Assembly (NCBI GenBank): GCA_021791195.1
Contig: JAJYXB010000019.1
Coordinates: forward strand, 62,001 to 126,000
Origin: Actinomycetes bacterium
GTDB lineage: Bacteria; Actinomycetota; Thermoleophilia; BMS3ABIN01
Direction of reading: 5' to 3'
Length of the DNA stretch: 64,000 nucleotides
This document shows positions 35,369 through 50,625 of the stretch, in pieces. The position numbers and the translations under genes were made by a program. Below the pieces are notes generated by a model. It did not search any database, was not told where the DNA came from, and saw only the letters and a program-made list of their open reading frames with translations. The first letter of the stretch is position 1. The number at the start of each line of letters is the position of its first letter.

Positions 35369-38200
35369 ATGCCGAACCTGACCTCTGAACAAGAGGCGCG
35401 AGAGAAGATTGATGAGCTGCTGACGGCGGCAGGCTGGCTGGTACAAAACGCGAAGGAAGTCAGCATAAATGCTGGCCTGGGCGTCGCCATCCGCGAGTTC
35501 CCGCTGAAGTCGGGTCACGGGCATGCGGATTATCTGCTTTACGTGGACGGCAAAGCGGCCGGTGTCATTGAGGCCAAGAAAAAGGGCGCCACGCTTATTG
35601 GCGTGGAGACCCAGTCAGACAAATACACCAAGGGGCTACCTGAAAGCCTTCCCACCTGGCGAAATCCACTGCCTTTCTCTTACGAGTCCACCGGCGTTGA
35701 AACCAGATTCACCAATGGGCTGGAGCCCGACGCCAGGTCGCATCTGGTTTTTGCGTTTCACCGGCCGGAAATGCTCGCCGATTGGCTCGAGATCTTAAGC
35801 GCCACAGGAAGTGACAAAGTCGCCGATGGTAAAGTTGAGTACCTGGCATCTGGTCCCATCCTCGAACGGCTCCGTCAATTGCCGCCCCTCGAAACGCAAG
35901 GCCTCTGGCCCGCCCAGATCACCGCCATCCAAAATCTGGAGCTCTCGCTCGCCGACAACCGCCCCCGCTCGCTCATCCAGATGGCGACCGGCTCTGGCAA
36001 AACTTTCACCGCCATCACTTCCATATATAGACTGATCAAGTTCGCCGGCGCCCGCCGCGTCCTCTTTCTGGTAGACCGCGGCAACCTCGCCGATCAGACG
36101 CTCAAGGAATTTCAGCAGTACGTCTCGCCGTACAACAACTTCAAGTTCAGCGAGGAGTACATCATCCAGCGCCTGACCAGCAACACAATCGACACCACTG
36201 CCCGCGTCTGCATCTGCACCCTGCAGCGCATGTACTCCATGCTCAAGGGCCGCGAGCTGGCCGAGGAAGATGAGGAGACGCCGCTCGATGACATGGGCCC
36301 TCTCCCTCGGGAGCCCGAGCTGATCGAGTACAACCCGGCTATACCTATCGAGACCTTCGATATCATCATCACCGACGAGTGCCACCGCTCTATCTATAAC
36401 CTCTGGGCGCAGGTGCTGGACTACTTCGACGCCAGGCTGATCGGGCTCACCGCCACGCCCAACAAACAGACCTTCGGCTTCTTCAACCAGAACCTGGTGA
36501 TGGAGTATCCGCACGAGGCCGCCGTGGCCGACAACGTCAATGTCAATTACGATGTCTACCGCATCCGCACCAATATCACCGAGGCCGGCTCCCGGGTAGA
36601 CGCCGGCTACTACGTGGAGAAGCGCGACCGCGAGACCCGCCAAACCCGCTGGGAGGAGTTGGACGAAGACTTCCAGTACGACCCCAACCAGCTGGACCGC
36701 GACGTGGTCGCGCCCGACCAGATCCGCAAGATCGTGCAGACCTTTCGCGACAATCTGTTTGGCGAGATTTTCCCCGGACGCACCGAAGTGCCGAAGACAC
36801 TTATTTTCGCCAAGGATGACAACCATGCCGAGACCATCGTCGAGATCATCCGTGAGGAGTTCGGCAAGGGCAACGACTTCGCCCAGAAGATCACCTATCG
36901 CACCACCGGCGCCAACCCCAAGGATCTGATCAAGGCGTTTCGCAACAGCTACAACCCGCGCATCGCCGTCACCGTGGACATGGTCGCCACCGGCACCGAC
37001 ATCAAGCCGGTGGAGATAGTGTTTTTCATGCGCGCGGTCAAGTCCCGCTCGTTCTTTGAGCAGATGAAGGGACGCGGCGTGCGCGTGATCCGGCCGGATG
37101 ACCTCAAGGCCGTCACCCCCGACGCCATCCTCAAGGACCACTTCGTGATTGTAGATGCCGTGGGCGTCTGCGAGCAGGACAAGACCGATTCGCGTCCCAT
37201 GGAGAAGAAGCCCAGCGTCGCCTTTGAAAGCCTGCTGCAGGCCGTTGCTTTCGGGAACGTCGAGGAAGATGTGCTCACCACCATCGCCGGGCGCCTGGCC
37301 CGCATGGAGCACCGGCTAAGCGAGGAGGACGAGCGGCGCATCCACGAAGTGAGCGGCGGCCTGACGGTTAGGGATATAAGCCACCGGCTGGTCGATGCCG
37401 TGAACCCCGATCTGCAGCTGGCGCAGGCGCGGGCCGATGCCGGCCTGGCGCCAGATTCAGAGGAACCGGTGAGCGCTGATGCGGTGCAGGAAGCGGCAAA
37501 GAAACTGATCGAGGCAGCCGTGACTCCGCTGCATGACCCAGCTCTGCGCGGCCTGCTGGTTGAGATAAAGAAGAAGAACGAGATCACCATCGACCACGTG
37601 AGCCAGGATCAGGTGATCGAGGCGGGGTTTAGCCTGGACGCGCTGGACCGCGCCCGCGGCGTCGTGGAGTCTTTCGAGAAGTTCATCGAGGATAACAAGG
37701 ACGAGATCACCGCCCTGCAGGTTTTATACAGCAAGCCCTATCGGGCGCGGTTGAAGTTCGAGGATGTGCGAGACCTGGCGGAAGCTATTGAGCGACCGCC
37801 ATATCTGTGGAGTGAATCCCAGCTCTGGCAAGCTTATGCGGCGCTGGATAAATCGAAAGTGAAAGGCGCCAGTGGCAAGCGGATACTCACCGACCTGGTG
37901 TCGCTAGTCCGCTTCGCCATTCACCAGGATAACGAACTGGTGCCATTCCCCGAGCGCGTGGACGCCAACTATAGCGCATGGCTCGCCAGCCAAGAGCAGG
38001 GTGGCCGCAAGTTCACGGATGAGCAGCGGCGCTGGCTGGAAATGATCAGGGATCATATCGCTGCCAATCTGAGTATTACACGCGACGACTTCGAGGATGT
38101 GCCGTTTATACAGCAGGGCGGTCTCAGTCAAGTGTATGAAGTGTTCGGAGATGAGCTGGATGAGATTATTGAGGAATTGAGTGAGGCGTTGGTGGCGTGA
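35369..38200 (+). CDS. hsdR: Type I restriction enzyme R subunit
   Basis: This 943-aa subunit has an N-terminal PD-(D/E)XK nuclease with Asp54 (HADYLLYVD) and Glu68-Ala-Lys70, then an SF2 helicase with Walker A MATGSGKTFTAI (near residue 207), DECH at ~335 (ITDECHRSIYNLW), LTATP, and QMKGRGVRVIRPDD as motif VI. The C-terminal ~250 residues match the EcoEI-type R C-terminal domain. It translocates and cuts unmodified DNA together with HsdM and HsdS. hsdS overlaps by 4 nt. Confidence 0.95.
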   Translation: MPNLTSEQEAREKIDELLTAAGWLVQNAKEVSINAGLGVAIREFPLKSGHGHADYLLYVDGKAAGVIEAKKKGATLIGVETQSDKYTKGLPESLPTWRNPLPFSYESTGVETRFTNGLEPDARSHLVFAFHRPEMLADWLEILSATGSDKVADGKVEYLASGPILERLRQLPPLETQGLWPAQITAIQNLELSLADNRPRSLIQMATGSGKTFTAITSIYRLIKFAGARRVLFLVDRGNLADQTLKEFQQYVSPYNNFKFSEEYIIQRLTSNTIDTTARVCICTLQRMYSMLKGRELAEEDEETPLDDMGPLPREPELIEYNPAIPIETFDIIITDECHRSIYNLWAQVLDYFDARLIGLTATPNKQTFGFFNQNLVMEYPHEAAVADNVNVNYDVYRIRTNITEAGSRVDAGYYVEKRDRETRQTRWEELDEDFQYDPNQLDRDVVAPDQIRKIVQTFRDNLFGEIFPGRTEVPKTLIFAKDDNHAETIVEIIREEFGKGNDFAQKITYRTTGANPKDLIKAFRNSYNPRIAVTVDMVATGTDIKPVEIVFFMRAVKSRSFFEQMKGRGVRVIRPDDLKAVTPDAILKDHFVIVDAVGVCEQDKTDSRPMEKKPSVAFESLLQAVAFGNVEEDVLTTIAGRLARMEHRLSEEDERRIHEVSGGLTVRDISHRLVDAVNPDLQLAQARADAGLAPDSEEPVSADAVQEAAKKLIEAAVTPLHDPALRGLLVEIKKKNEITIDHVSQDQVIEAGFSLDALDRARGVVESFEKFIEDNKDEITALQVLYSKPYRARLKFEDVRDLAEAIERPPYLWSESQLWQAYAALDKSKVKGASGKRILTDLVSLVRFAIHQDNELVPFPERVDANYSAWLASQEQGGRKFTDEQRRWLEMIRDHIAANLSITRDDFEDVPFIQQGGLSQVYEVFGDELDEIIEELSEALVA

Positions 38201-39681
38201 ATATAAAAACAATCGCCAAATTGCCAAAGCAAGAATTACCGGCGGAATGGCAATGGTCTAAGCTCGGAGATGTTGCTGATATCGTAGCAGGTAATCCAGC
38301 GCCGCAGGGTGAGCAATTTTTTGAGAACGGAACTTATCCATTTGTCCGCGTGCAAGATATGGGCCGCCTTGGAACACAGGTACGCATGACTGATACACAT
38401 GATCGAGTGAATGAGACAGCTATACCAAAGTTGAAGCTGTTTCCGGCCGGGAGCGTTTTATTCACAAAAAGTGGCGCATCAACGCTCCTGAATCAAAGAG
38501 CAATACTCGCGCGTGATATGTACGTTGTGAGCCATATTGCCGCTGCGATTCCAAGCGATACAATTTTGAGCGAATGGCTTTATTATTGGTTGAAAGTCAT
38601 AGACTTTAACCAATTGGCTCACGCAACAACATTGCCATCTCTTCCTCTATCACAAGCCAAAGAAATCCCCGTTCCTATTGCTCCTAAAGAAGTGCAAGCA
38701 AATGTTATCGCCGAAATCGAAATACAATTCTCCCGGCTCGACGAGGCTGTCACCAGCCTAAAGAGAGCCAAAGCCAACCTCAAACGCTACAAAGCCGCCT
38801 TCCTCAAAGCCGCCGTCGAAGGCAAGCTGACGGAAGAGTGGCGCAAACAACACCCCGACGTCGAACCCGCCACCGAACTCCTAAAACGCATCCTCATCGA
38901 ACGCCGCCAAAAATGGGAAGAAGCCGAGCTCGCCAAAATGCGCGCGAAAGGCAAAGAGCCGAAGGATGATAAGTGGAAGGCAAGATATAAAGAGCCAATT
39001 ATCACCGATACGGAACATCTACAAGAACTACCGAGCGAATGGATGTGGGTATCACTTTTAACAGTGGCGGTAAAAATACAAACTGGTCCATTTGGTTCTC
39101 TACTACATAAAGAAGAATATGTCAAACGTGGTGTACCTCTGGTAAATCCTACCCATATTAGTGGCCAGCGTATACTCGCAGATTGGGATCTAACAGTTCT
39201 TCCGAATAAGGCAAACTCCCTAAGTAAATACAGGATGGAGATGGGTGATATCGTAATGGGACGAAGGGGTGAAATGGGGCGTTGTGCATCGGTTTCGGAA
39301 AAACAGGATGGATGGCTTTGCGGAACAGGTAGTCTATTCATCAGGCTTATACCACATATGAACTCTTTGTTTTACAGTCATTTTCTAAGTTCAAAAGTGA
39401 TTCGAGATTACTTGGGTGAAAATAGCATTGGAACAACAATGAGTAACTTAAATCAAAATATTTTGCGCTCACTTCCTATTCCTCTATGTTCAGAAGCTGA
39501 ACAAGACAGAATCATGCAGGATGTCAATTATAAAATATCGATTATTGATAAATTAGAAACTTATACTTCCAGTAACTTGCAAGAAATTGAAATATTACGC
39601 CAATCAATCCTCAATAAAGCCTTTTCGGGCAACCTAAAGAGCAAGTATGAAAAACTCATTACGGGATTGAAGACAAAATGA
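38197..39681 (+). CDS. hsdS: Type I restriction-modification specificity subunit
   Basis: This 494-aa subunit has two target-recognition domains (about residues 15-170 and 285-440), each followed by a helical conserved region (FSRLDEAVTSLKRAKANLKRYKAAFLKAAVEGKL; LQEIEILRQSILNKAFSGNL). The GTG start overlaps the hsdR stop (GTGA). The TRD parts are clearly AT-richer than the neighbours, whereas the central conserved region is GC-rich, the usual pattern when TRDs are exchanged. It reads a bipartite DNA sequence that cannot be predicted here. Confidence 0.93.
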   Translation: MNIKTIAKLPKQELPAEWQWSKLGDVADIVAGNPAPQGEQFFENGTYPFVRVQDMGRLGTQVRMTDTHDRVNETAIPKLKLFPAGSVLFTKSGASTLLNQRAILARDMYVVSHIAAAIPSDTILSEWLYYWLKVIDFNQLAHATTLPSLPLSQAKEIPVPIAPKEVQANVIAEIEIQFSRLDEAVTSLKRAKANLKRYKAAFLKAAVEGKLTEEWRKQHPDVEPATELLKRILIERRQKWEEAELAKMRAKGKEPKDDKWKARYKEPIITDTEHLQELPSEWMWVSLLTVAVKIQTGPFGSLLHKEEYVKRGVPLVNPTHISGQRILADWDLTVLPNKANSLSKYRMEMGDIVMGRRGEMGRCASVSEKQDGWLCGTGSLFIRLIPHMNSLFYSHFLSSKVIRDYLGENSIGTTMSNLNQNILRSLPIPLCSEAEQDRIMQDVNYKISIIDKLETYTSSNLQEIEILRQSILNKAFSGNLKSKYEKLITGLKTK

Positions 39682-40499
39682 CTGATGACATAAATGATAC
39701 TCAGAAGCATCTTGAAAGAGTGAATAGGTCAGGATTTCCGCTTCAGATTGGTCTGGAATATCTGCTTCAAAAAAATCCTGGTCGGCGCCATTGGCATTCA
39801 CTTGTTTCAGAGTATCCATGGAATTACGAAGAATCTAAAACGAATGGTTTTATAGACCTTGTCATCGAGGATATCCACCAAGTGGGAATAATGGTGATCG
39901 AATGTAAAAGAGTTCGTGATACCGAATGGATTTTTTTAATCCCGCCGGGTGAGGAATCCAGAACACATACGAACGCCTGGGTTTCTTGGAAAAAGAGCCC
40001 AGAGGCACGGCGCATATTTGACTGGCACGATATCCAAACTGAACCCAACTCGCCAGAAGCGGCATTCTGTATTGTTGCTGGACAAGATGCAAAAAGTAGA
40101 CCAATGCTTGAAAAAGTAGCATCGCAGCTAATTGATGCCACTGAAGCGTTAGCGAGAGAAGAAATGCAAATATATCAACTCCATGGAAAGGAATTTTGGA
40201 GCGCCAGAACATATTTTCCGACCATAATAACCACTGCAGAGTTAAAAGTTTGCAAATTTGATCTCGCAAAAATCGATATCGATAATGGCGACCTTTTAGA
40301 TGCCGAATTTGTAACAGTTCCTTTCCTTCGTTTTAGAAAAGCATTTTCGATAAGAGCTTCAAAACTTCTATCTGCTGGAAACATAGCGCATGTATCAACA
40401 GCGTCAGAGAGAACAGTTTATGTAGTTAATTCTAGCTCCTTTGAATCATTTTTAAGCCAATGGGATCTGCCAGTAAATTCATTAAATAGTTTAAGATAA
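39678..40499 (+). CDS. PD-(D/E)XK nuclease-like protein embedded in the hsd operon
   Basis: This 273-aa protein has a possible restriction-endonuclease-like core: Glu45 (SEYPW), Asp60 in NGFIDLVIED and Glu75-x-Lys77 in IMVIECKRVRD. The remainder has no recognised domain. It is AT-rich like the hsdS TRDs. The ATG overlaps the hsdS stop by 4 nt, which indicates coordinated expression with the restriction system. It may be an accessory nuclease or a protein of another defence unit; no known family name came to mind. The motif reading is by eye. Confidence 0.65.
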   Translation: MTDDINDTQKHLERVNRSGFPLQIGLEYLLQKNPGRRHWHSLVSEYPWNYEESKTNGFIDLVIEDIHQVGIMVIECKRVRDTEWIFLIPPGEESRTHTNAWVSWKKSPEARRIFDWHDIQTEPNSPEAAFCIVAGQDAKSRPMLEKVASQLIDATEALAREEMQIYQLHGKEFWSARTYFPTIITTAELKVCKFDLAKIDIDNGDLLDAEFVTVPFLRFRKAFSIRASKLLSAGNIAHVSTASERTVYVVNSSSFESFLSQWDLPVNSLNSLR

Positions 40500-40505
40500 G
40501 GGTTC

Positions 40506-40680
40506 AATCACGCCTCAAATCGTCCAAGAACTCTGGATCTACTGCAATGTCCTCCGTGACGACGGGATGAGCTACGGCGATTACGTCGAGCAGCTCACAT
40601 ATCTGCTCTTCCTCAAAGGCGGAAGACCGCATGTGCAGAGCATCGTTACGGCTGGCCAGTCGCCAATTTCTCACGGCTTA
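40506..40680 (+). pseudogene. 5' fragment of an hsdM gene
   Basis: Bases 40519-40617 match the start of the intact hsdM (43153-43251) with 7 differences in 99 bp, and the frame reads IVQELWIYCNVLRDDGMSYGDYVEQLTYLLFLK. Homology ends abruptly and the frame closes about 20 codons on. The ATG is missing. It marks where hsdM would be expected directly after the accessory gene and shows that the AbiE pair was inserted or that two related operons recombined here. Bases 40,681-40,890 are AT-rich with no gene. Confidence 0.85.
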
Positions 40681-40897
40681 AATTAGCCGATGGCATAACT
40701 TTCAATTGGACGATAATGAAACCTTCATTTGGCTGATAGAAAAAATAAACTCTGGGCCACCAGCGGATCTTCCTCAACTACATAATTAGCGTAATAATTC
40801 CGCCAAAATAGGAAAATTTACGCATATAATATAGTTTTCTTTCTAACTTAGTATATAATCTGTGCATTAATTCTTATAAAATATGAAATATGACTCT

Positions 40898-40908
40898 TAG
40901 AATATAGC
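40898..40908 (+). promoter_or_regulatory. Leaderless-type -10 box of abiEi
   Basis: TAGAAT (40898-40903) ends 5 nt before the abiEi ATG, without any ribosome-binding site. Another TATAAT lies near 40,852 in the same AT-rich block. Either would give the AbiE pair its own promoter inside the hsd operon. Confidence 0.45.
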
Positions 40909-41727
40909 ATGAATACACTAGCTGGCCTTGGAAAAACTGATCGCGCCCGCCTGGCGCTGGTTTTGCGTGGCACAAAAGGTACAGTCTCGGTTAGCGAGGC
41001 GGCCGAGCTTTTGGGCGTCCCTGCAAATATTGCGGCCAAGATGCTGTCCCGCTGGGCGCAGGCTGGCTGGTTGTCACGCATTCGCCGTGGTCTGTATGTT
41101 CCTGTTTCCCTAGAATCACGCACGGCGGATATCCCCTTGGAAGATCCGTGGACAGTTGCCGCCCGTCTTTATGAGCCCTGCTATATCGGCGGTTGGAGCG
41201 CGGCCGAGTATTGGGATCTTACCGAGCAAATATTTCGCACTGTTCTGGTTATGACAACCCGGAAACCCCGGCAAAGAAAAACAAAGATTAAGGGAACGGA
41301 CTTTCTCCTGCGAACGGTTTCTGACAAGGCGCTCTTTGGCCTAAAACCTGTCTGGCGAGGGCAAGTCAAAGTTAATCTGTCCGACCCGGCACGTACAATT
41401 ATCGACATGCTTGGTGAGCCCAAACTGGGTGGCGGCATCCGTTCTGTCACAGATATGTTTGTGGCTTATTTGAAATCTGAAAAAAAAGACCTCGACCTGC
41501 TGGTTAATTATGCAGAGCAATCGGGCAACGGCGCTGTTTTCAAAAGAATGGGGTTTCTTCTGGAAGGACTCGGCTGTGGGGATGAAGCAATCATCAACAG
41601 ATGTCAGGAAAAGCTGACGACAGGTTATGCCAAGCTGGATACCAGCCTGCCAGCCGAGAGGCTGGTTACCAGGTGGCGGCTATGGGTTCCGGAGCGGTGG
41701 CTGAAAGAGATTCCGGTTGATAGATAA
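40909..41727 (+). CDS. abiEi: AbiEi-type antitoxin, type IV toxin-antitoxin
   Basis: This 272-aa protein has an N-terminal winged helix (VSVSEAAELLGVPANIAAKMLSRWAQAGWLSRIRRGLYV) and the AbiEi C-terminal domain (YIGGWSAAEYWDLTEQ, VNLSDPARTIIDMLGEP). In AbiE systems this protein represses the operon and neutralises the toxin without direct binding. It overlaps the toxin gene by 11 nt. The adjacent AT-rich leader probably contains its binding sites. Confidence 0.9.
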   Translation: MNTLAGLGKTDRARLALVLRGTKGTVSVSEAAELLGVPANIAAKMLSRWAQAGWLSRIRRGLYVPVSLESRTADIPLEDPWTVAARLYEPCYIGGWSAAEYWDLTEQIFRTVLVMTTRKPRQRKTKIKGTDFLLRTVSDKALFGLKPVWRGQVKVNLSDPARTIIDMLGEPKLGGGIRSVTDMFVAYLKSEKKDLDLLVNYAEQSGNGAVFKRMGFLLEGLGCGDEAIINRCQEKLTTGYAKLDTSLPAERLVTRWRLWVPERWLKEIPVDR

Positions 41728-43135
41728 ACAGGAAGTGCTGGAGTTCGCACGGGAATTTTCACTGGATCCGCACGTTATTGAAAAGGATTACGTTCTGGGC
41801 TGGATCCTTGCGGGTATCGCCAGCCATGATGGGCTCAGATCCACATGGATATTCAAAGGCGGAACCTGTCTTAAGAAATGCTACTTTGAAACCTATCGCT
41901 TCTCGGAAGACCTGGATTTCACGTTAACTGACCCCGCGCATATAAATGCGGAATTCCTTGGTGAGACTTTCCCAACAATCGCTGACTGGGTTTATGATCA
42001 AGCAGGCATTGAAATACCACAAGACACACTTCGCTTCAAGGTCTATAAAAACTCTCATGGCGGCGAATCGGTTGAAGGGCGAATTGGATATCGGGGTCCC
42101 TTGCAGCGACGGGGCGACGCTCCGCGAATCAAACTCGATCTCACTGCAAACGAAATCCTGGTCCTGGAACCATCTGCAAGAGCTGTTCACCACCCATATT
42201 CCGACGGACCCGCCGAAGGGATTAGAATCTCCTGCTACTCATTTGAGGAAGTTTTCGCTGAAAAGGTTCGGGCATTGGCGGAACGAGAACGACCTCGTGA
42301 CCTATATGATGTCGTGCATCTCCATCGCCACGACGAGCTAACACCAGATCGAGAAATTGTCTTTAACACCTTGGAGAAAAAATGCTCTTTTAAAGGAATT
42401 CCCATGCCAACTTTCGCCGCTTTGGAAGCACAGCCAGCGCGAGCCGAACTGGAAGCTGAATGGGAGAATATGCTAGGACATCAATTACCTGCACTTCCCC
42501 CTTTTGAACAATTCTGGAATGAACTGCCGGCAGTTTTTGACTGGTTGCAAGGCGCGGCTGCGAAGGTCGCGAAACTATCTGTAGCGGTAGGCAATAATAT
42601 TGATGAAACGTGGCGGCCTCCTTCAATGGCGCAGGCCTGGCACACCACCGCGCCGCTGGAGATAATTCGTTTTGCGGCAGCCAACCGGCTCTGTGTCACG
42701 TTGGCTTATCAAGGCAGCACCCGTCTGATAGAACCATACTCCCTCAGGCGAACAAGGGCAGGGAATCTTCTCTTATATGCAGTCAAGCACGGAACCGGCG
42801 AGATAAGGGCATACCGAGTCGATCGCATCCATGGCGCCGAAGTATCACAAGAGGCATTTATTCCAAAATACGCTGTTGAGCTTACGCCTGCCGGTTCGAT
42901 GGCGGCTCCGCCCGTGCAAAATCGGCTAACCTTGGGTTTGCCATATCGCTCGCGAGGTACTCGCACCCGGCGCACCGTCAGCAGCGGACCTAGATACGTG
43001 ATTGAATGTCCTTACTGCGGAAAGAAATTCACAAGGAAGAAAAGAGGCACAAGGTTGAACAAACACAATGACCAATACGGCAACAGATGTTCAGGTTCTT
43101 TCCGAACCGGTACATTGGTTGATACCATATACTGA
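41717..43135 (+). CDS. abiEii: AbiEii nucleotidyltransferase toxin fused to WYL and zinc-finger-like domains
   Basis: This 472-aa protein begins at a TTG inside the end of abiEi. Residues 1-~240 are an AbiEii/AbiGii-type nucleotidyltransferase: IFKGGTCLKK (45-54), EDLDFT (64-69), and EKVRALAERERPRDLYDV (182-199). Residues ~312-388 look like a WYL domain (PLEIIRFAAANRLCVTLAYQG, RLIEPYSLRRTRAGNLLL, IRAYRVDRIHGAEV). A C-terminal C-x2-C-x15-H-x7-C set (C431, C434, H450, C458) suggests a zinc finger. Canonical AbiEii lacks the last two. The stop is 2 bp before hsdM, so the pair is joined to the restriction operon. Confidence 0.85.
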   Translation: MIDKQEVLEFAREFSLDPHVIEKDYVLGWILAGIASHDGLRSTWIFKGGTCLKKCYFETYRFSEDLDFTLTDPAHINAEFLGETFPTIADWVYDQAGIEIPQDTLRFKVYKNSHGGESVEGRIGYRGPLQRRGDAPRIKLDLTANEILVLEPSARAVHHPYSDGPAEGIRISCYSFEEVFAEKVRALAERERPRDLYDVVHLHRHDELTPDREIVFNTLEKKCSFKGIPMPTFAALEAQPARAELEAEWENMLGHQLPALPPFEQFWNELPAVFDWLQGAAAKVAKLSVAVGNNIDETWRPPSMAQAWHTTAPLEIIRFAAANRLCVTLAYQGSTRLIEPYSLRRTRAGNLLLYAVKHGTGEIRAYRVDRIHGAEVSQEAFIPKYAVELTPAGSMAAPPVQNRLTLGLPYRSRGTRTRRTVSSGPRYVIECPYCGKKFTRKKRGTRLNKHNDQYGNRCSGSFRTGTLVDTIY

Positions 43136-43137
43136 TT

Positions 43138-44679
43138 ATGAATCCCGCCTCCATCGTCCAAAAACTCTGGAACTACTGTAACGTCCTCCGCGACGACGGC
43201 ATGAGCTACGGCGATTACGTCGAGCAGCTCACCTATCTGCTCTTCCTCAAAATGGCGGACGAGCGCACGCAGAAACCCTATAAACAAAAGAGCATCGTTC
43301 CGGATGAGTACAGTTGGCAGAGTCTCATCAAGCGCGACGGTGACGAGCTTTTCGATCACTACCGCCACATCCTCGAAGCCCTGGGCCGTGAGAAGGGATT
43401 GCTCGGCCTTATCTTTGGCAAGTCCCAGAACAAGTTCCAGGACCCCGCCAAGCTTCGTCGGCTGATCGTCGATCTCATCGACAAGGAGAACTGGTCGCGC
43501 ATGAGCGCGGACGTCAAGGGCGATGCCTACGAGGGGCTCCTCAACAAAAACGCCGTGGAGTCGCCCAAGGGAGCGGGGCAATACTTCACCCCGCGCCCGC
43601 TCATCCGCGCTATCGTCGATGCCGTGGCGCCCCAGCCCGGCGAGCAGATCTGCGACCCGGCCTGCGGTACCGGCGGCTTCCTGCTCGCCGCGCACGACTA
43701 TATCGTCGCCAACAACGAACACCTCACCAGCGCCGAGAAGAAAAAGCTCAAGGAGAACACCTTCAAGGGCTGCGAGCTGGTGCCGGGCGTGGCGCGCCTT
43801 TGCGCCATGAACATGCTCCTGCACGGCATCGGCAGCCCGGAGTATGAGCCGGTCGTGGTGAGCGACTCGCTCGCGGCCGACCCCCAGGAGCGCTTCCAGC
43901 TGGTGCTCACCAATCCGCCTTTCGGCAAGAAAAGCAGCGTCACCATTGTTGGCGAGGACGGCCGGGCCGCGAAAGAGCGCGAGAGTTACGAGCGTGATGA
44001 TTTCTGGACCACGACCTCCAACAAGCAGCTCAACTTTTTGCAGCATGTGAAGACTCTGCTGGCTATCAACGGGCGGGCCGCGGTTGTGGTGCCGGATAAC
44101 GTGCTGTTTGAGGGCGGTGCTGGTGAGACGATCCGGCGGCGCCTGCTGGATGAGTGCGATGTGCATACGCTGCTGCGGTTGCCGACAGGGCTGTTTTATG
44201 CGCAGGGCGTGAAGGCTAATGTCTTGTTCTTTGACAAGAAGCCCGCGAGCGAGGAGCCGTGGACGCGGAAACTGTGGATATATGATCTGCGGACTAACAT
44301 GCACTTTACGCTGAAGACGAATCCGCTCAAGCGGTCTGATCTTGATGATTTTGTGAAGTGCTATAAGACTGATGCTCGGGCGCGGCGCAAGGATACGTGG
44401 TCAGTGGACTTGAAAGAACTTTCACCTGGGCAGACCGAATATAAAGGGCGCTGGCGCGGCTTTTCCTATGACGAGATCGTCGCGCGCGATAAAGCCAGCC
44501 TGGATATCTTCTGGCTGCGGGATGAAAGCCTGGAAGATTCTGATAACTTGCCCGAGCCGGGCGTGATAGCTCAGGAGATTGTGGCTGATCTTGAGGCGGC
44601 GTTAGTGCAGTTTAAGGAGATTGCGATGGATTTGGGGGTTGAAGATATTACGGAAGAACTTGAAAGCGCGTCGGATTAG
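43138..44679 (+). CDS. hsdM: Type I restriction-modification methyltransferase subunit
   Basis: This 513-aa N6-adenine methyltransferase has an HsdM N-terminal helical domain (VQKLWNYCNVLRDDGMSYGDYVEQLTYLLFLKM), the SAM-binding DPACGTGGFLLAAHDY near residue 172 and the catalytic NPPFG near residue 259. Together with HsdS it methylates the host recognition site. The ATG is 2 bp after the abiEii stop. Its N-terminal coding region is duplicated as a fragment at 40519-40617. Confidence 0.95.
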   Translation: MNPASIVQKLWNYCNVLRDDGMSYGDYVEQLTYLLFLKMADERTQKPYKQKSIVPDEYSWQSLIKRDGDELFDHYRHILEALGREKGLLGLIFGKSQNKFQDPAKLRRLIVDLIDKENWSRMSADVKGDAYEGLLNKNAVESPKGAGQYFTPRPLIRAIVDAVAPQPGEQICDPACGTGGFLLAAHDYIVANNEHLTSAEKKKLKENTFKGCELVPGVARLCAMNMLLHGIGSPEYEPVVVSDSLAADPQERFQLVLTNPPFGKKSSVTIVGEDGRAAKERESYERDDFWTTTSNKQLNFLQHVKTLLAINGRAAVVVPDNVLFEGGAGETIRRRLLDECDVHTLLRLPTGLFYAQGVKANVLFFDKKPASEEPWTRKLWIYDLRTNMHFTLKTNPLKRSDLDDFVKCYKTDARARRKDTWSVDLKELSPGQTEYKGRWRGFSYDEIVARDKASLDIFWLRDESLEDSDNLPEPGVIAQEIVADLEAALVQFKEIAMDLGVEDITEELESASD

Positions 44680-44689
44680 ACCGGCCTGT

Positions 44690-45034
44690 TCAAGAGGCAA
44701 TCTTTTCTTTCTGCCGCCGTTTTGGGGCCGCAAGTGTCTTAGCTAGATCCATCCGCGACGCACCAAGCACAAAGAGAGCTCGAACCAAAAGATCGATTGA
44801 AACAGATGGATCCCCCGCCTCCATCTTGGCAACCCGTGACTGGCTGGATTTCAGCATTTTTGCCAGTTTAGCCTGGGTGAAATGCTTTCCCTGCCTCCGC
44901 TCCTTTAAACTCTGAGCAAGCTCGAGTTTCGTGTCAACGTAGGCCATCTCTTCGTCAGAAAGTTCCAGAAAATCCTGGGTGCTGCCAATCTTCCAGCCCT
45001 TCGCTTCCAGTGCTTTCCTTTTGTTCTTATCCAT
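44690..45034 (-). CDS. XRE-family antitoxin (HigA-like)
   Basis: This 114-aa protein has an XRE-type helix-turn-helix (FTQAKLAKMLKSSQSRVAKMEAGDPSVSIDLLVRALFVLGAS). The ATG at 45034 follows the toxin stop by 19 bp; the longer frame to 45100 lies inside the toxin gene. It is the second gene of a toxin-first pair, the HigBA order. It converges with hsdM, 10 bp apart. Confidence 0.85.
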   Translation of the reverse strand: MDKNKRKALEAKGWKIGSTQDFLELSDEEMAYVDTKLELAQSLKERRQGKHFTQAKLAKMLKSSQSRVAKMEAGDPSVSIDLLVRALFVLGASRMDLAKTLAAPKRRQKEKIAS

Positions 45035-45053
45035 TCGGGTTTCAGCCCCTAAC

Positions 45054-45389
45054 TTAAGATAAATGGTCGTATTGCCCAATTCTTTTCTTACAAATATCAA
45101 TAATATTCTTTGGCGTTTGCTGTGTCTTCTTGGAGAATACTTCTAAAATCAGAATTGCATCATTATCGATACGGTAGACGATTCGCCATGTTACATCCTC
45201 ATCATTTATTTTTATCTCATGACACCTTGTGCCAATGTTAGGCATAGGTCTTGACATCGGCAGGGAAAGATTTTTTCCTTTCTGGAGCAGTCTTAGGTAA
45301 TGTCCCGCCTCCACTCTGGCGTCTTGTGAAAATGGCGGAGTCCGGACTTCGCCATGCAACCAGACCAAGGGTTTTTCAACTCCAGTCAC
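45054..45389 (-). CDS. RelE/HigB-type (Gp49-like) toxin
   Basis: This 111-aa protein has the phage-derived Gp49-like/HigB pattern: VWLHGEVRTPPFS, the core IGTRCHEIKINDEDVTWRIVYRIDNDAILILEVFSKKTQQTP, and a basic C-terminal helix. Such toxins are ribosome-dependent mRNA interferases. The GTG at 45389 has no ribosome site. On the minus strand TTGAAA, a 17-bp spacer and TAAAAT end 5 nt before it, suggesting a leaderless transcript. Confidence 0.85.
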   Translation of the reverse strand: MTGVEKPLVWLHGEVRTPPFSQDARVEAGHYLRLLQKGKNLSLPMSRPMPNIGTRCHEIKINDEDVTWRIVYRIDNDAILILEVFSKKTQQTPKNIIDICKKRIGQYDHLS

Positions 45390-45854: not shown

Positions 45855-48800
45855 TTAGGTAATCGGGTTACCGAATACCTCATTGAAGCTGTCGTAGTAC
45901 AGTGTCCTCTGCGTCGCGATTATCTTCTTGCCGTTAGTGGACACAACCTTCACCGGTCCACCCATCATTGCCGGATTGATCTGGAACGCGTCCACTGCTC
46001 CAGGAGCAATCGTCTTTGTGGCTTCCAGATTTGCTCCGACGTAGATCTCCACCTGTGCGTTGTCGCTGTCAACGTTGGCGATGGCAATCCAGTCTCCGTT
46101 CATTCCGGCGCTGGAATTGTCATACCAGGACCAGGCATATGCCGTTGCGGCCATAGTCGAGTCCAGGAAGTTCGTCTCGTTGAACGACTTCTTGTACGTC
46201 GTACGCTCAGATACGGTCAGTTTGTCACCGTTGGTCAGGCCATTCGGTATTCTAACGTATACCGGCCCGCCTCTGAGATCTGGCCACGACTTAACCGACA
46301 CATTACCAGCCGGAATCGTCACGTTGCCCTGAGACACCCCGCCGGCCACAATCTCAGCAGTGATGCTGTGATTGCTCTGGTTGCTCATGACGATCCAGGC
46401 TTGCAAGCCAGCGGCTGCCGTGGAGTCGTACCATGGGGTGTAGTAGTACCTGTCACCGACAGTGCCAGTGGTATTGACCGTGAACCAGTCATAACCTTGG
46501 CCGAGGTTCCCGGCGTTATCCTTGACATCAACCTCGACATCGTGCTTGCCGTTGGTAAGGCCAGTAGCCGTACAGCTGATACTGGTTGCCGTTACCGTGC
46601 AGCCAGACAGCGGCACTGAATCGACCTTGATAACTGCCGTTCCGGTATTGATACCACTGCCGCCAACATTGTCGCTAAAGTTGGCGTATACCACAGTACT
46701 CGCGCTGGTAACGGTGTCGTACTGGTTCGGCTGAATACCGGTCACTGTCGGCGGGGTCGTATCGGTCATTGCCGTCGGCTGGAATATCAGCTTGAGGAGA
46801 CCGCTCGTCAGATGCCCGGCTCCACTTGCGTTGTCCGCATAGGAAAGACCGAAATCATACGGTCCATTGTTGCTCCCGTAGGAGGAACCTGGTGAGAAGA
46901 TGACATCCTCGGCAGGATTCCCCGTGTCCAGGGCGCGGCTGTATTCATACGTCCAGACCCCGTCTTTCCAGGTCGCAGACATTATCACGTCAGACCTGCT
47001 GCCCGAGGGGCCTTTGGGGCCTTCAGAACCAGCAGCATTCATCAGGATGCTTTCCGGCACAACTGCTTTCAGGTCGGTGTAGTTTTTCCATGCGGCCTGT
47101 AGAGCAGCCGGGGTCAAGCTACTAACCAGCACAGCAGAACCACCAGTTATATCACTCTGCGTGATAGTCATGGCATCTACAAAGTTAGCCGGAGCCGGTT
47201 TGATGTATTTGGGCGCTCCCGTCGCGGCAACAACGTTGCTGGCGGTGGCGTCATTTCCGCCGTCAGGATGGATACCGCCAGTAGGGGTGTTTGGCCCGAC
47301 CCAGTTGTCATCTGAGAATCCGGTGAACGTGATTTTCCCAGCAGTCACCGCATGAGTATTCGGATCAACTGTCAGCGGGGGAGTCTCGCCGCGGGTGGTG
47401 ACAGGCAGGAATTGTGCTGCTTTTCCACTCCACAGATCTGCCGTGCCATCAGCCAGCCAGGAAGTACTATCGCCTGCGTGGCATTTGGTCCCGCAGCCGC
47501 TGGTGTCAAAGCCCGGCGTACCCATGCTCCACATCCATCCCAGCCGATCCTGGTTTTGACCCTGAACCCGTGCCCATTGGCTGATAGTGACAGTGGGAGG
47601 GCCAGCGAGATAGTCGTAGCCAGAGCCACCGTTAGTAAGCGTGAGTCCTGTAACCACACCACCGGTGATGGTTGATGTAGCCAGAGCGGTAGTACCGCTG
47701 GCCGGCGGAGCGATAGTGACTGCAGGGGCGGAGACATAACCGGAGCCGCCGTATGTAAGCGTCAGGCTAGCTATGCTGGTTGTTTTCAGCGTACCCGTTG
47801 CGGTGGCTGCTGTGGTGCCGCCAGGGAAGGTGAAGTGCGGGTTTGCCGAGTAGTTGGAACCCGGATTCGTTACGGTGATGGCCGTAAGGCTGCCGCCGGC
47901 GAAGGTGCCGGTGCACGTAGCGCCTGTGCCGGTAGTGTCCGCGGGGTCGTTAACTACGGTACACGCACCAGTACCATCCGGATAACCTGTGCCCGCATTA
48001 GTGACGGTATACGAGGTCCCAAATACGTTCGCATCATTGACACCCGGCTTGGCCAGCACGGCCGTTGCCGTAGCGGTGGAGCCGGTAGTCGGGGGTCCCA
48101 GGGTGATCGTGGGAACCGTGGTGTAGTCAGAGTTCCCGCTGGTAACAGTGACACCCGAAACTGCGCCGCCGCCTATCGTGGCTGTACAGGTAGCACCAGT
48201 GCCGCCGCCGCCCGTGACTGTACAAGCAGGAACGGCGGTGTAACCCGTCCCCGCCTGCGTGATAGTGGCTGCCGTAACGAGTCCGGTAGCCGCCAGATTC
48301 ACTGTACCCTTAAAACCGGTACCGCCCCCGGCGCCGGTAACGGTGACGGTCGGTTCCATGTGATAGCCGGAGCCGGCGCCGCCAGGACTAACAGTGACGC
48401 TGTCGATCACACCACCGGTTTGGTGGGCGGTGCACGTGGCGGTTGTTGTGATCGTATCCGCGGGGTCTTTAACTACGGTGCAGGTAAGTGCGCCGGAGTA
48501 CGAGCTGCCCCCGTTCACAATCGTGAACGAACTGACGGAGGTGGCTTGCAGGGTAGTCGTTGCCGTGGCCTGCGTGCCGGTGCCAGCCAGTGACCAGGCT
48601 GAGCCCGTGAAGCTGGCCGTCGTATCCGGTACGGTAGCCAGGAAGTATACCCTACCGCCGGTAAATACCGATTTCAAAGTGGCGCCCGGCGTGGTCAAAG
48701 TCAGCGGAGTCGCGGCTGCCCAGGCAGGGTCTGTTCCGGTACCAGTCATTGCCGGAGCAGTGTCGACCTGAGCAGAAATGAGGGTGTCGCCCCCACTGAT

Positions 48801-48911
48801 CGCACTGTTAACCGGACTGGATGCCAAACCCATGGATATCCCGGCAATTAGTAAAACCAAAACTACCGCAAGTCCCACCAAGGCGGGCCCTAATTTAATA
48901 ACTCTCTCCAT
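45855..48911 (-). CDS. Large exported protein: EB_dh-like c-type heme domain split by Gly/Thr-rich repeats
   Basis: This 1018-aa protein starts at ATG 48911 with GGAGG 7 nt upstream and has a signal peptide (residues ~6-30). Residues ~45-110 (DTAPAMTGTGTDPAWAAATPL, SVFTGGRVYFLATVPD) resemble the start of an ethylbenzene-dehydrogenase-type heme domain, and residues ~448-480 (QDRLGWMWSMGTPGFDTSGCGTKCHAG) its continuation, with a c-heme motif CGTKCH at 473-478. Between them (residues ~123-443) are about eight repeats of ~40 residues (ITVTNxGSGYxxxPxxTxxG). An Ig-like domain (~residues 725-820) and two C-terminal units with YxxxWYD follow. No sorting signal is seen. Heme attachment and electron transfer are inference. 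Confidence 0.75.
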   Translation of the reverse strand: MERVIKLGPALVGLAVVLVLLIAGISMGLASSPVNSAISGGDTLISAQVDTAPAMTGTGTDPAWAAATPLTLTTPGATLKSVFTGGRVYFLATVPDTTASFTGSAWSLAGTGTQATATTTLQATSVSSFTIVNGGSSYSGALTCTVVKDPADTITTTATCTAHQTGGVIDSVTVSPGGAGSGYHMEPTVTVTGAGGGTGFKGTVNLAATGLVTAATITQAGTGYTAVPACTVTGGGGTGATCTATIGGGAVSGVTVTSGNSDYTTVPTITLGPPTTGSTATATAVLAKPGVNDANVFGTSYTVTNAGTGYPDGTGACTVVNDPADTTGTGATCTGTFAGGSLTAITVTNPGSNYSANPHFTFPGGTTAATATGTLKTTSIASLTLTYGGSGYVSAPAVTIAPPASGTTALATSTITGGVVTGLTLTNGGSGYDYLAGPPTVTISQWARVQGQNQDRLGWMWSMGTPGFDTSGCGTKCHAGDSTSWLADGTADLWSGKAAQFLPVTTRGETPPLTVDPNTHAVTAGKITFTGFSDDNWVGPNTPTGGIHPDGGNDATASNVVAATGAPKYIKPAPANFVDAMTITQSDITGGSAVLVSSLTPAALQAAWKNYTDLKAVVPESILMNAAGSEGPKGPSGSRSDVIMSATWKDGVWTYEYSRALDTGNPAEDVIFSPGSSYGSNNGPYDFGLSYADNASGAGHLTSGLLKLIFQPTAMTDTTPPTVTGIQPNQYDTVTSASTVVYANFSDNVGGSGINTGTAVIKVDSVPLSGCTVTATSISCTATGLTNGKHDVEVDVKDNAGNLGQGYDWFTVNTTGTVGDRYYYTPWYDSTAAAGLQAWIVMSNQSNHSITAEIVAGGVSQGNVTIPAGNVSVKSWPDLRGGPVYVRIPNGLTNGDKLTVSERTTYKKSFNETNFLDSTMAATAYAWSWYDNSSAGMNGDWIAIANVDSDNAQVEIYVGANLEATKTIAPGAVDAFQINPAMMGGPVKVVSTNGKKIIATQRTLYYDSFNEVFGNPIT

Positions 48912-49260
48912 AAATAGTCCTCCATTCATTCAGGTTATTTAACCCACAATTATTAAGCTTAAGACCCCAGCGCCATAATCCTCCAATCTTTATTATTTAT
49001 TCTTAATTTTTTATTCCTCTTATCCTCTGGTTTCGAACCCTATCATATCCCGACATACCACACAATATTTAACAAATATTTAACACCACGGGCATAAAAG
49101 ATCAAGTCCCAACCGTGCTGTAAATTCGCTTTCCGACAGTGTTTCTCTCGCTTGACGTGGCCTGGTAAAAATGGACATCCATGACAAGTTATTGTCAAGG
49201 AAAACGGGGGTTTGGCGCTGCGCCCATTTCCCCGCACCAGTTCGGCCATGGCCAAAGAGT
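48912..49260. other. AT-rich leader of the exported cytochrome-like gene
   Basis: This low-GC stretch precedes the exported-protein gene. On the minus strand it has GGAGG followed by a five-codon frame (ATGGCGCTGGGGTCTTAA) about 70 nt before the true start, possibly a leader peptide by chance. No riboswitch or gene recognised. Confidence 0.35.
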
Positions 49261-49687: not shown

Positions 49688-50155
49688 CTACTGCTTTCGC
49701 TTCAGAATACGGTCGTCGAAATTAAAGGGCAGTGGCCGGCTGGCCCTGACCTTCCTGAAGGCAGCCTGAAGGGGGTTGATGATGAAATTATATTCCCCCG
49801 GCACGATCACTGAAGGCACGCGCAGGATCAGGGTTCTGGCAGACCTGGCCCACTCGCTGCCGATCCGGACTGTTTCAGCCTGGAAAGGCATGGCGTCCCA
49901 ACCGGGTGACAGGGCCGTTCGGGGGAGATTCGTAACCCTTGTATCGTCAGGAACGCTGAAGCTGCGATATTTCAGGTCAGGCGGGGCTAACACCAGCGGC
50001 AAATGGACAAGATACTCCAGCGCGGCCAGTGAGAGACTCTCCGCGGTGTAAATAACGGAGATGCCTTTTTCATTCCAGCGGCCGCCGTTGACGCGCGCGC
50101 CCTCGCCGGTTAAATCCCCGATGTGCCCGGCCTTGGCTATCCGGAAGAATTTCAC
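49688..50155 (-). CDS. RES-domain toxin
   Basis: This 155-aa protein has the RES family pattern: FFRIAKAGHIGDLTGEGARVNGGRWNEKGISVIYTAESLSLAALEYLVHL, with the conserved Arg, Tyr, Glu and Ser spaced as in NAD-degrading RES toxins (Res/MbcT). The GTG at 50155 shares one nucleotide with the antitoxin stop. It should deplete NAD when unneutralised. A 2-gene module with the Xre antitoxin upstream. Confidence 0.92.
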   Translation of the reverse strand: MKFFRIAKAGHIGDLTGEGARVNGGRWNEKGISVIYTAESLSLAALEYLVHLPLVLAPPDLKYRSFSVPDDTRVTNLPRTALSPGWDAMPFQAETVRIGSEWARSARTLILRVPSVIVPGEYNFIINPLQAAFRKVRASRPLPFNFDDRILKRKQ

Positions 50156-50625
50156 TATGCGGGGATGCCGTGAGCAATCCGTCCCAGTTCGTCAACAACC
50201 AGTTCTATGCCAAACCGGGAGCTTAGTAACTCGATTGGCTTTCGGCCTCCGAGCGCAGTGGACGGCATCGACAACCAGGTGAGAAAATTACCGCGATCTG
50301 CAAATACATCTATACCAATTGCCACCACTTCAGCCAACTGCAGCGCCTGCTCACTGACAATCTGATTCATTAATTTCTGCGTTTGATATCGTTGCAGGGT
50401 TCTCTCGGTAATTGGCAATAGTTTTGCCATGTCTCGCCAGGTGAGCGACATACTGGCAGCAAGATGCCGCACAGCGCTCTTTTTGATTCCCTGCCTGCCG
50501 AGCTCAATAAAGTCATTGATGCTCTTTATCTTCCGCCCTAAAACTTCTTCGCCACCAAGTATTTCTTCTACGTGAGCGTAACTCATCTGAATCACACCTT
50601 CCCACCGGCTTACGTCATTTGTCAT
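50155..50625 (-). CDS. Xre/MbcA/ParS-family antitoxin
   Basis: This 156-aa partner of RES toxins has an N-terminal helical Xre-like region (AVRHLAASMSLTWRDMAKLLPITERTLQRYQ) and a C-terminal DUF2384 toxin-binding region (AEVVAIGIDVFADRGNFLTWLSMPSTALGGRKPIELLSSRFGIELVVDELGRIAHGIPA). Antitoxin-first order is usual for RES-Xre. A possible alternative start is the internal ATG in VIQMSYAHVEEILGG, which has a GGTGTG-type site. Confidence 0.92.
   Translation of the reverse strand: MTNDVSRWEGVIQMSYAHVEEILGGEEVLGRKIKSINDFIELGRQGIKKSAVRHLAASMSLTWRDMAKLLPITERTLQRYQTQKLMNQIVSEQALQLAEVVAIGIDVFADRGNFLTWLSMPSTALGGRKPIELLSSRFGIELVVDELGRIAHGIPA

Follow-up and report, generated by a model that had tools for sequence, protein, structure and literature searches.

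A predicted exported EB_dh-type heme protein from an actinobacterium with a phage-virion-type repeat array inserted in its putative heme domain

Introduction

Tailed phages carry promiscuous Ig-like domains on many unrelated proteins. Among members of the EB_dh family (Pfam PF09459), the gamma subunits of ethylbenzene dehydrogenase and NXR (NXR-C) bind heme b through Met and Lys as part of a molybdoenzyme complex (PMC8840923, PMC8387239). A different motif, CX3CH, has been termed an atypical heme motif in ImcH and in some CymA homologues (PMC6295460). We found no description in the open-licence literature of CX3CH in EB_dh proteins, nor of the type of repeat described below.

Here we analyse a gene that combines an EB_dh-type domain, CX3CH and such repeats, located at positions 45855..48911 on the minus strand of a 64,000-nucleotide stretch ('the window') of an actinobacterial draft genome. 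Its product, a predicted exported protein of 1018 amino acids, contains the sole EB_dh match in its genome. Genes for a molybdenum alpha subunit and an Fe-S beta subunit do not adjoin it; its neighbours are restriction-modification, AbiE-type and other toxin-antitoxin genes.

Results

Gene boundaries and domain organization

The start of the gene is supported by a GGAGG at 48919-48923, seven bases before the ATG at 48911, and the reading frame is uninterrupted across all 1018 residues. Residues 1-31 (48819..48911; minus strand, as for all features of the protein given below) display by eye a positive N terminus and a hydrophobic stretch, are predicted to form a signal peptide or N-terminal membrane anchor, and align with the N terminus of array-less homologues. 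They are followed by the N half of an EB_dh-type domain (residues 35-108; 48588..48809), which ends past a conserved tryptophan (Trp106), an inserted array of eight GxGY repeats (residues ~109-445; 47577..48587), and the C half of the EB_dh-type domain (residues 446-714; 46770..47576), the first residue of which is a second conserved tryptophan (Trp446).

The C-terminal region, which an earlier sequence-only reading of this DNA had likened to surface-display units, resolved into three parts: one Ig-like domain (residues 717-809; 46485..46763), for which the Big_5 Pfam match of 19.7-22.4 bits lies just under the cut-off of 23.6, and two modules of ~100 residues of a 'WYD/FNE' type (residues ~820-918, 46158..46454, and residues ~922-1016, 45864..46148). 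The Big_5-like domain is also repeated in other proteins of the same genome. The WYD/FNE-type modules have many copies there as well, being present in at least a dozen other proteins, where they usually stand several in tandem, at or close to the C-terminal end.

The GC content of the array is 0.62 versus 0.57 for its flanks, with GC2 accounting for most of the difference, and the gene as a whole has a lower GC3 (0.58-0.68) than most of its neighbours (0.74-0.89). The composition therefore looks atypical for the whole gene and not for the array alone.

An EB_dh-type domain in two halves

PF09459 matched the intact chain with a score of 34 bits (cut-off 33.3) over residues 450-678, corresponding to profile positions 62-217. 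Since this match enters the profile at position 62, the first part of the domain is absent from that segment. The sequence-only reading had proposed that the flanks of the array are the two halves of a single EB_dh domain, and that the profile should be applied to the halves once joined. When residues 117-446 were taken out, the score rose to 46.4 bits and the match began at profile position 33; the protein is thus above the Pfam gathering score for EB_dh in both its intact and its array-less form.

A separate profile, built from five homologues with the window protein left out, was matched by each half individually (35.7 bits for the N half and 33.5 bits for the C half), and the intact chain entered it twice, with residues 4-124 aligned to profile positions 4-128 and residues 450-713 to positions 148-375. 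The array itself scored -3.4 bits. The joined halves scored 61.4 bits versus at most 37.2 bits for 200 joins made with a shuffled N half and at most 34.2 bits for 78 joins made with other stretches of the protein. On the strength of the difference from the shuffled joins, we conclude that the predicted EB_dh-type domain is split by the array beyond chance, in agreement with the earlier proposal.

Trp106 and Trp446 align with strongly conserved tryptophans (found in 12/13 and 13/13 homologues, respectively). The gap between them is a short turn of about 6-12 residues in relatives and 339 residues in the window protein, and the second strand and the heme motif lie 381 residues apart, as compared to 48-90 in heme-type homologues. 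By this alignment, the array occupies the turn of one predicted beta hairpin, between Trp106 and Trp446. An AlphaFold2 (AF2) model of residues 40-714, computed with three homologues (four sequences in all), had a pLDDT of 38.5, too low for the model to be used, and a sequence search of solved structures with the core and the array gave nothing meaningful.

The CX3CH motif and the capacity for heme attachment

The CGTKCH motif at residues 473-478 (47478..47495) had been taken for a CxxCH heme motif. It is present and conserved, but three residues separate its cysteines, so that it is a CX3CH motif and not the canonical CX2CH of c-type cytochromes. Its cysteines and histidine (C473, C477 and H478), together with His700 (46812..46814), are invariant across all 13 aligned heme-type homologues and are kept in the window protein, which speaks against a location in an unconserved surface loop, one of the two findings that would have counted against the earlier reading. 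The histidine of CX3CH and His700, the latter as the candidate distal ligand, are putative axial ligands of a heme. These four residues and both of the tryptophans that bracket the array are among the 28 (of 34) strongly conserved core columns that the protein retains. EB_dh proteins of the phylum that are more distantly related (L065-L069, L074) do not have the motif.

Adjacent ResB and CcsA-type genes for cytochrome c maturation are found on contig C9 of the same genome, which also encodes several multiheme c-type candidates, one of which matches the MtrC/MtrF domain II/IV family above its cut-off. The protein with this match (G000 contig C9, L050 6024-6851) is exported, contains five CXXCH motifs and one CX3CH motif, and is encoded near the ResB/CcsA genes. 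Given this maturation pair and these multiheme candidates, the organism very likely makes c-type cytochromes, and covalent heme on the window protein would be plausible, with the caveat that CX3CH is non-canonical for attachment by a ResB/CcsA system.

The inserted array and its relationship to phage virion proteins

The array comprises eight units of ~41 residues, with tyrosine anchors at residues 138, 183, 224, 263, 310, 354, 392 and 432. It starts and stops in the same repeat phase, corresponding to a whole number of repeats. The insertion had previously been placed at 47,583-48,545 with about eight repeats; the number of units stands, whereas the extent is slightly longer and best described by the boundaries given above. 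Three of the eight repeats contain a cysteine pair at equivalent places (residues 143-159, 230-242 and 317-332), which could form intra-repeat disulfides. No other protein of the same genome matches the array.

Comparison with PHROGs placed the array among virion structural, head closure, baseplate wedge and tail fibre families (best score 81 bits), and when viral contigs were scanned using a related bacterial array as query, 213 relatives were confirmed, of which 80 were kept. Hidden Markov models trained on viral units alone recognized eight domains in the window array (156 bits), with phase C as the best-fitting circular phase. A tblastn search of the array against a phage collection gave no match, possibly due to low-complexity filtering; viral contigs and PHROGs hold many. 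Pfam analysis of the neighbouring genes revealed no virion genes; the array is part of a cellular EB_dh gene and not of a virion structural gene or a prophage.

AF2 modeling of the array with 34 viral arrays gave a mean pLDDT of 79.1, with 128 residues at or above 90, and a pTM of 0.38; the array is thus predicted to consist of well-formed small beta units, the mutual arrangement of which is not fixed. The array might conceivably close upon itself by way of its first and last strands, but the first strand has a pLDDT below 50 in this model. Of the 57 matches that a Foldseek search against BFVD gave at E ≤ 0.001, most of those with a name were phage structural or baseplate proteins; a search against the PDB returned none that were significant (the top match being a T4 tail sheath fragment, with an E value of 0.87).

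The same repeats in other exported proteins of Thermoleophilia

The array was matched in 17 of 119 related genomes. Within one multicopper oxidase family, arrays are found at three positions (an N-terminal site in L092 and L096, a mid site in L098 and a third site in L093 and L103), and for each position there are members without an array. YCF48-type propellers have two array sites (one in L099, the other in L101 and L104), each of which is empty in other members; a third propeller family has a single site common to L095 and L102; and in L094 and L100 two related propeller halves flank the array. The independence of these insertions was judged from alignments with and without the array, and not from a tree. 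The arrays are best fit as whole numbers of units in differing circular phases: phase C in the window protein, L101 and L104, phase A in L094, L099 and L100, and phase B in L095 and L102, with the phase being less clear-cut for L092, L096, L093, L098 and L103.

At the N-terminal oxidase site, where L092 and L096 have a GxGY array, L093 has four modules of the same WYD type that ends the window protein, so that two module types use one insertion site. L093 (G013 C15) and L080 (G104 C202), array-bearing multicopper oxidases from two genomes placed in different families, are both encoded by open frames of 1762 amino acids and have near-identical match scores, a likeness that may reflect either recent transfer or contamination.

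The array is therefore not unique to the window protein: it belongs to a widespread phage-virion-type repeat that is also inserted in other predicted exported proteins of related genomes. Copper oxidases are among the several other secreted proteins in which related bacteria have these repeats, so the array looks like a portable surface attachment and not a one-off oddity.

Genomic context and distribution

Type I restriction-modification genes, interrupted by an AbiE-type pair, lie near the gene, as do two further pairs, one HigB/HigA-like and one RES-Xre. The restriction-modification system (window positions 35369-44679) comprises hsdR, hsdS and hsdM, the last two of which are separated by the AbiEi/AbiEii-type pair; the AbiEii-like member of this pair further contains a WYL domain and has a C terminus that is zinc-finger-like. 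The toxin-antitoxin pairs flank the gene, with Gp49/HTH (HigB/HigA-like) genes at 44690-45389 and RES/Xre genes at 49688-50625.

The gene is accessory in this lineage, since five same-genus genomes are without EB_dh and four other genomes of the family have an array-less relative. In those four genomes the array-less relative lies just downstream of genes for a sensor kinase and a NarL-type response regulator (Pfam assignments having been made on one pair); no two-component genes are found next to the window gene. A search for a second array-split EB_dh domain found none, leaving the architecture in one draft genome only, and a scan of genome contigs returned three relatives, all among those from the genome search. 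In another actinobacterial class (G400, G415 and G429; L061-L063 and L071-L076) we observed clusters of genes for EB_dh-type, lipoprotein-like CX3CH proteins, one of which adjoins a gene for a six-CXXCH protein.

Discussion

We consider it probable that the gene encodes an exported, single-heme c-type cytochrome with an EB_dh fold, tethered at the cell surface, and that a portable phage-type array in the turn of one of its hairpins serves it for adhesion or as a spacer. The Ig-like and WYD-type modules at its C terminus would tether or display the cytochrome. The eight-unit beta array would have been gained in the turn between Trp106 and Trp446, leaving the heme motif and core residues intact, and would represent a surface decoration that bacteria of this class also put in loops of other exported proteins. 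Its most likely contribution would be adhesion or spacing, such that the heme domain meets a surface or a partner. This role is read from the company that the array keeps: surface contact or spacing would be the simplest function common to its settings, because the exported proteins that have it are functionally unrelated, and in phages it is found on particle components.

A broader proposal, which we offer tentatively, is that the array is an insertion cassette within this bacterial class, in which unrelated exported proteins would acquire and lose whole-unit arrays, in any of three circular phases, at their surface turns (here within a heme-type domain that keeps its conserved residues). Such arrays would equip surface redox proteins with a shared means of adhesion or spacing.

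The sequence-only reading had instead suggested that the protein could act in extracellular electron transfer, with a stalk-like insertion; in such a chain the heme would relay electrons between multiheme cytochromes and minerals or partner cells. The organism's own multiheme cytochromes, including the MtrC/MtrF-type candidate encoded close to ResB/CcsA, would be consistent with such a chain, as would the clustered CX3CH paralogues of another actinobacterial class with their six-CXXCH neighbour. We nevertheless regard it as unlikely: the protein has a single heme motif, its gene lies between restriction-modification and toxin-antitoxin genes and not beside cytochromes, and EB_dh is missing from five genomes of its genus. 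A redox protein with a regulated or sensing role, in which an extracellular redox signal or ligand is reported by the heme domain, is an equal candidate beside electron transfer, and similarly improbable in our estimation. It is suggested by the position of the array-less relative downstream of a sensor kinase and response regulator in four genomes, but that adjacency could equally reflect control of cytochrome expression, and the window gene has no such neighbours.

The insertion might alternatively have ended heme binding, such that the protein is now solely a surface display scaffold. The core has diverged, sharing 27-33% identity with relatives whose identity to one another is 56-68%, and is missing the CHW and DDQYID motifs of close relatives; this low identity would also fit drift. 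We find such degeneration rather doubtful, in view of the four out of four putative heme-contact residues and the conserved columns that are retained, as well as the open frame. An assembly artefact that joined an EB_dh gene to an unrelated repeat gene, for which the presence of the architecture in only one draft genome might argue, is highly improbable given two precise in-frame junctions at the same two conserved tryptophans, an array comprising a whole number of repeats, and insertions of this kind in several further genomes and proteins.

The preferred reading, of a surface-tethered cytochrome with a portable array in one turn, makes the protein a clear example from nature of a redox domain that holds a large repeat array, with the site narrowed to a single hairpin turn and array-less relatives available for comparison. 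That a phage-type repeat occurs in copper oxidases, in propellers and in a heme-type protein suggests a testable route from a phage-shared repeat to bacterial surface decoration, and the analysis adds a family in which CX3CH, and not CX2CH, is the invariant heme-type motif.

As compared to the gamma subunits of PF09459, the window protein falls in the same Pfam family over its cut-off and would share, by homology, the fold of an exported heme domain; it differs in having CX3CH and a histidine, no molybdoenzyme neighbours and an insertion of 337 residues. The CX3CH EB_dh proteins of related Actinomycetota (L022-L025, L060-L063, L071-L073, L075 and L076) have the same core, C-X3-C-H motif and distal histidine, but are all array-less. 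The GxGY arrays of phage virions (phrog_701, 460, 19630, 708 and 719, and cyanophage structural proteins) consist of the same ~40-residue repeat in sequence and predicted structure, but are located in virion, baseplate or neck proteins, whereas here the array lies inside a heme-type domain of a cellular protein. The array-bearing multicopper oxidases and propellers of Thermoleophilia (L092-L104) share the repeat, predicted export and bacterial class with the window protein, and differ in their host folds and insertion sites. Finally, although its fold and repeat are different, the array resembles the promiscuous Ig-like domains of tailed phages in appearing to be a surface-exposed beta module that has been added to many unrelated proteins.
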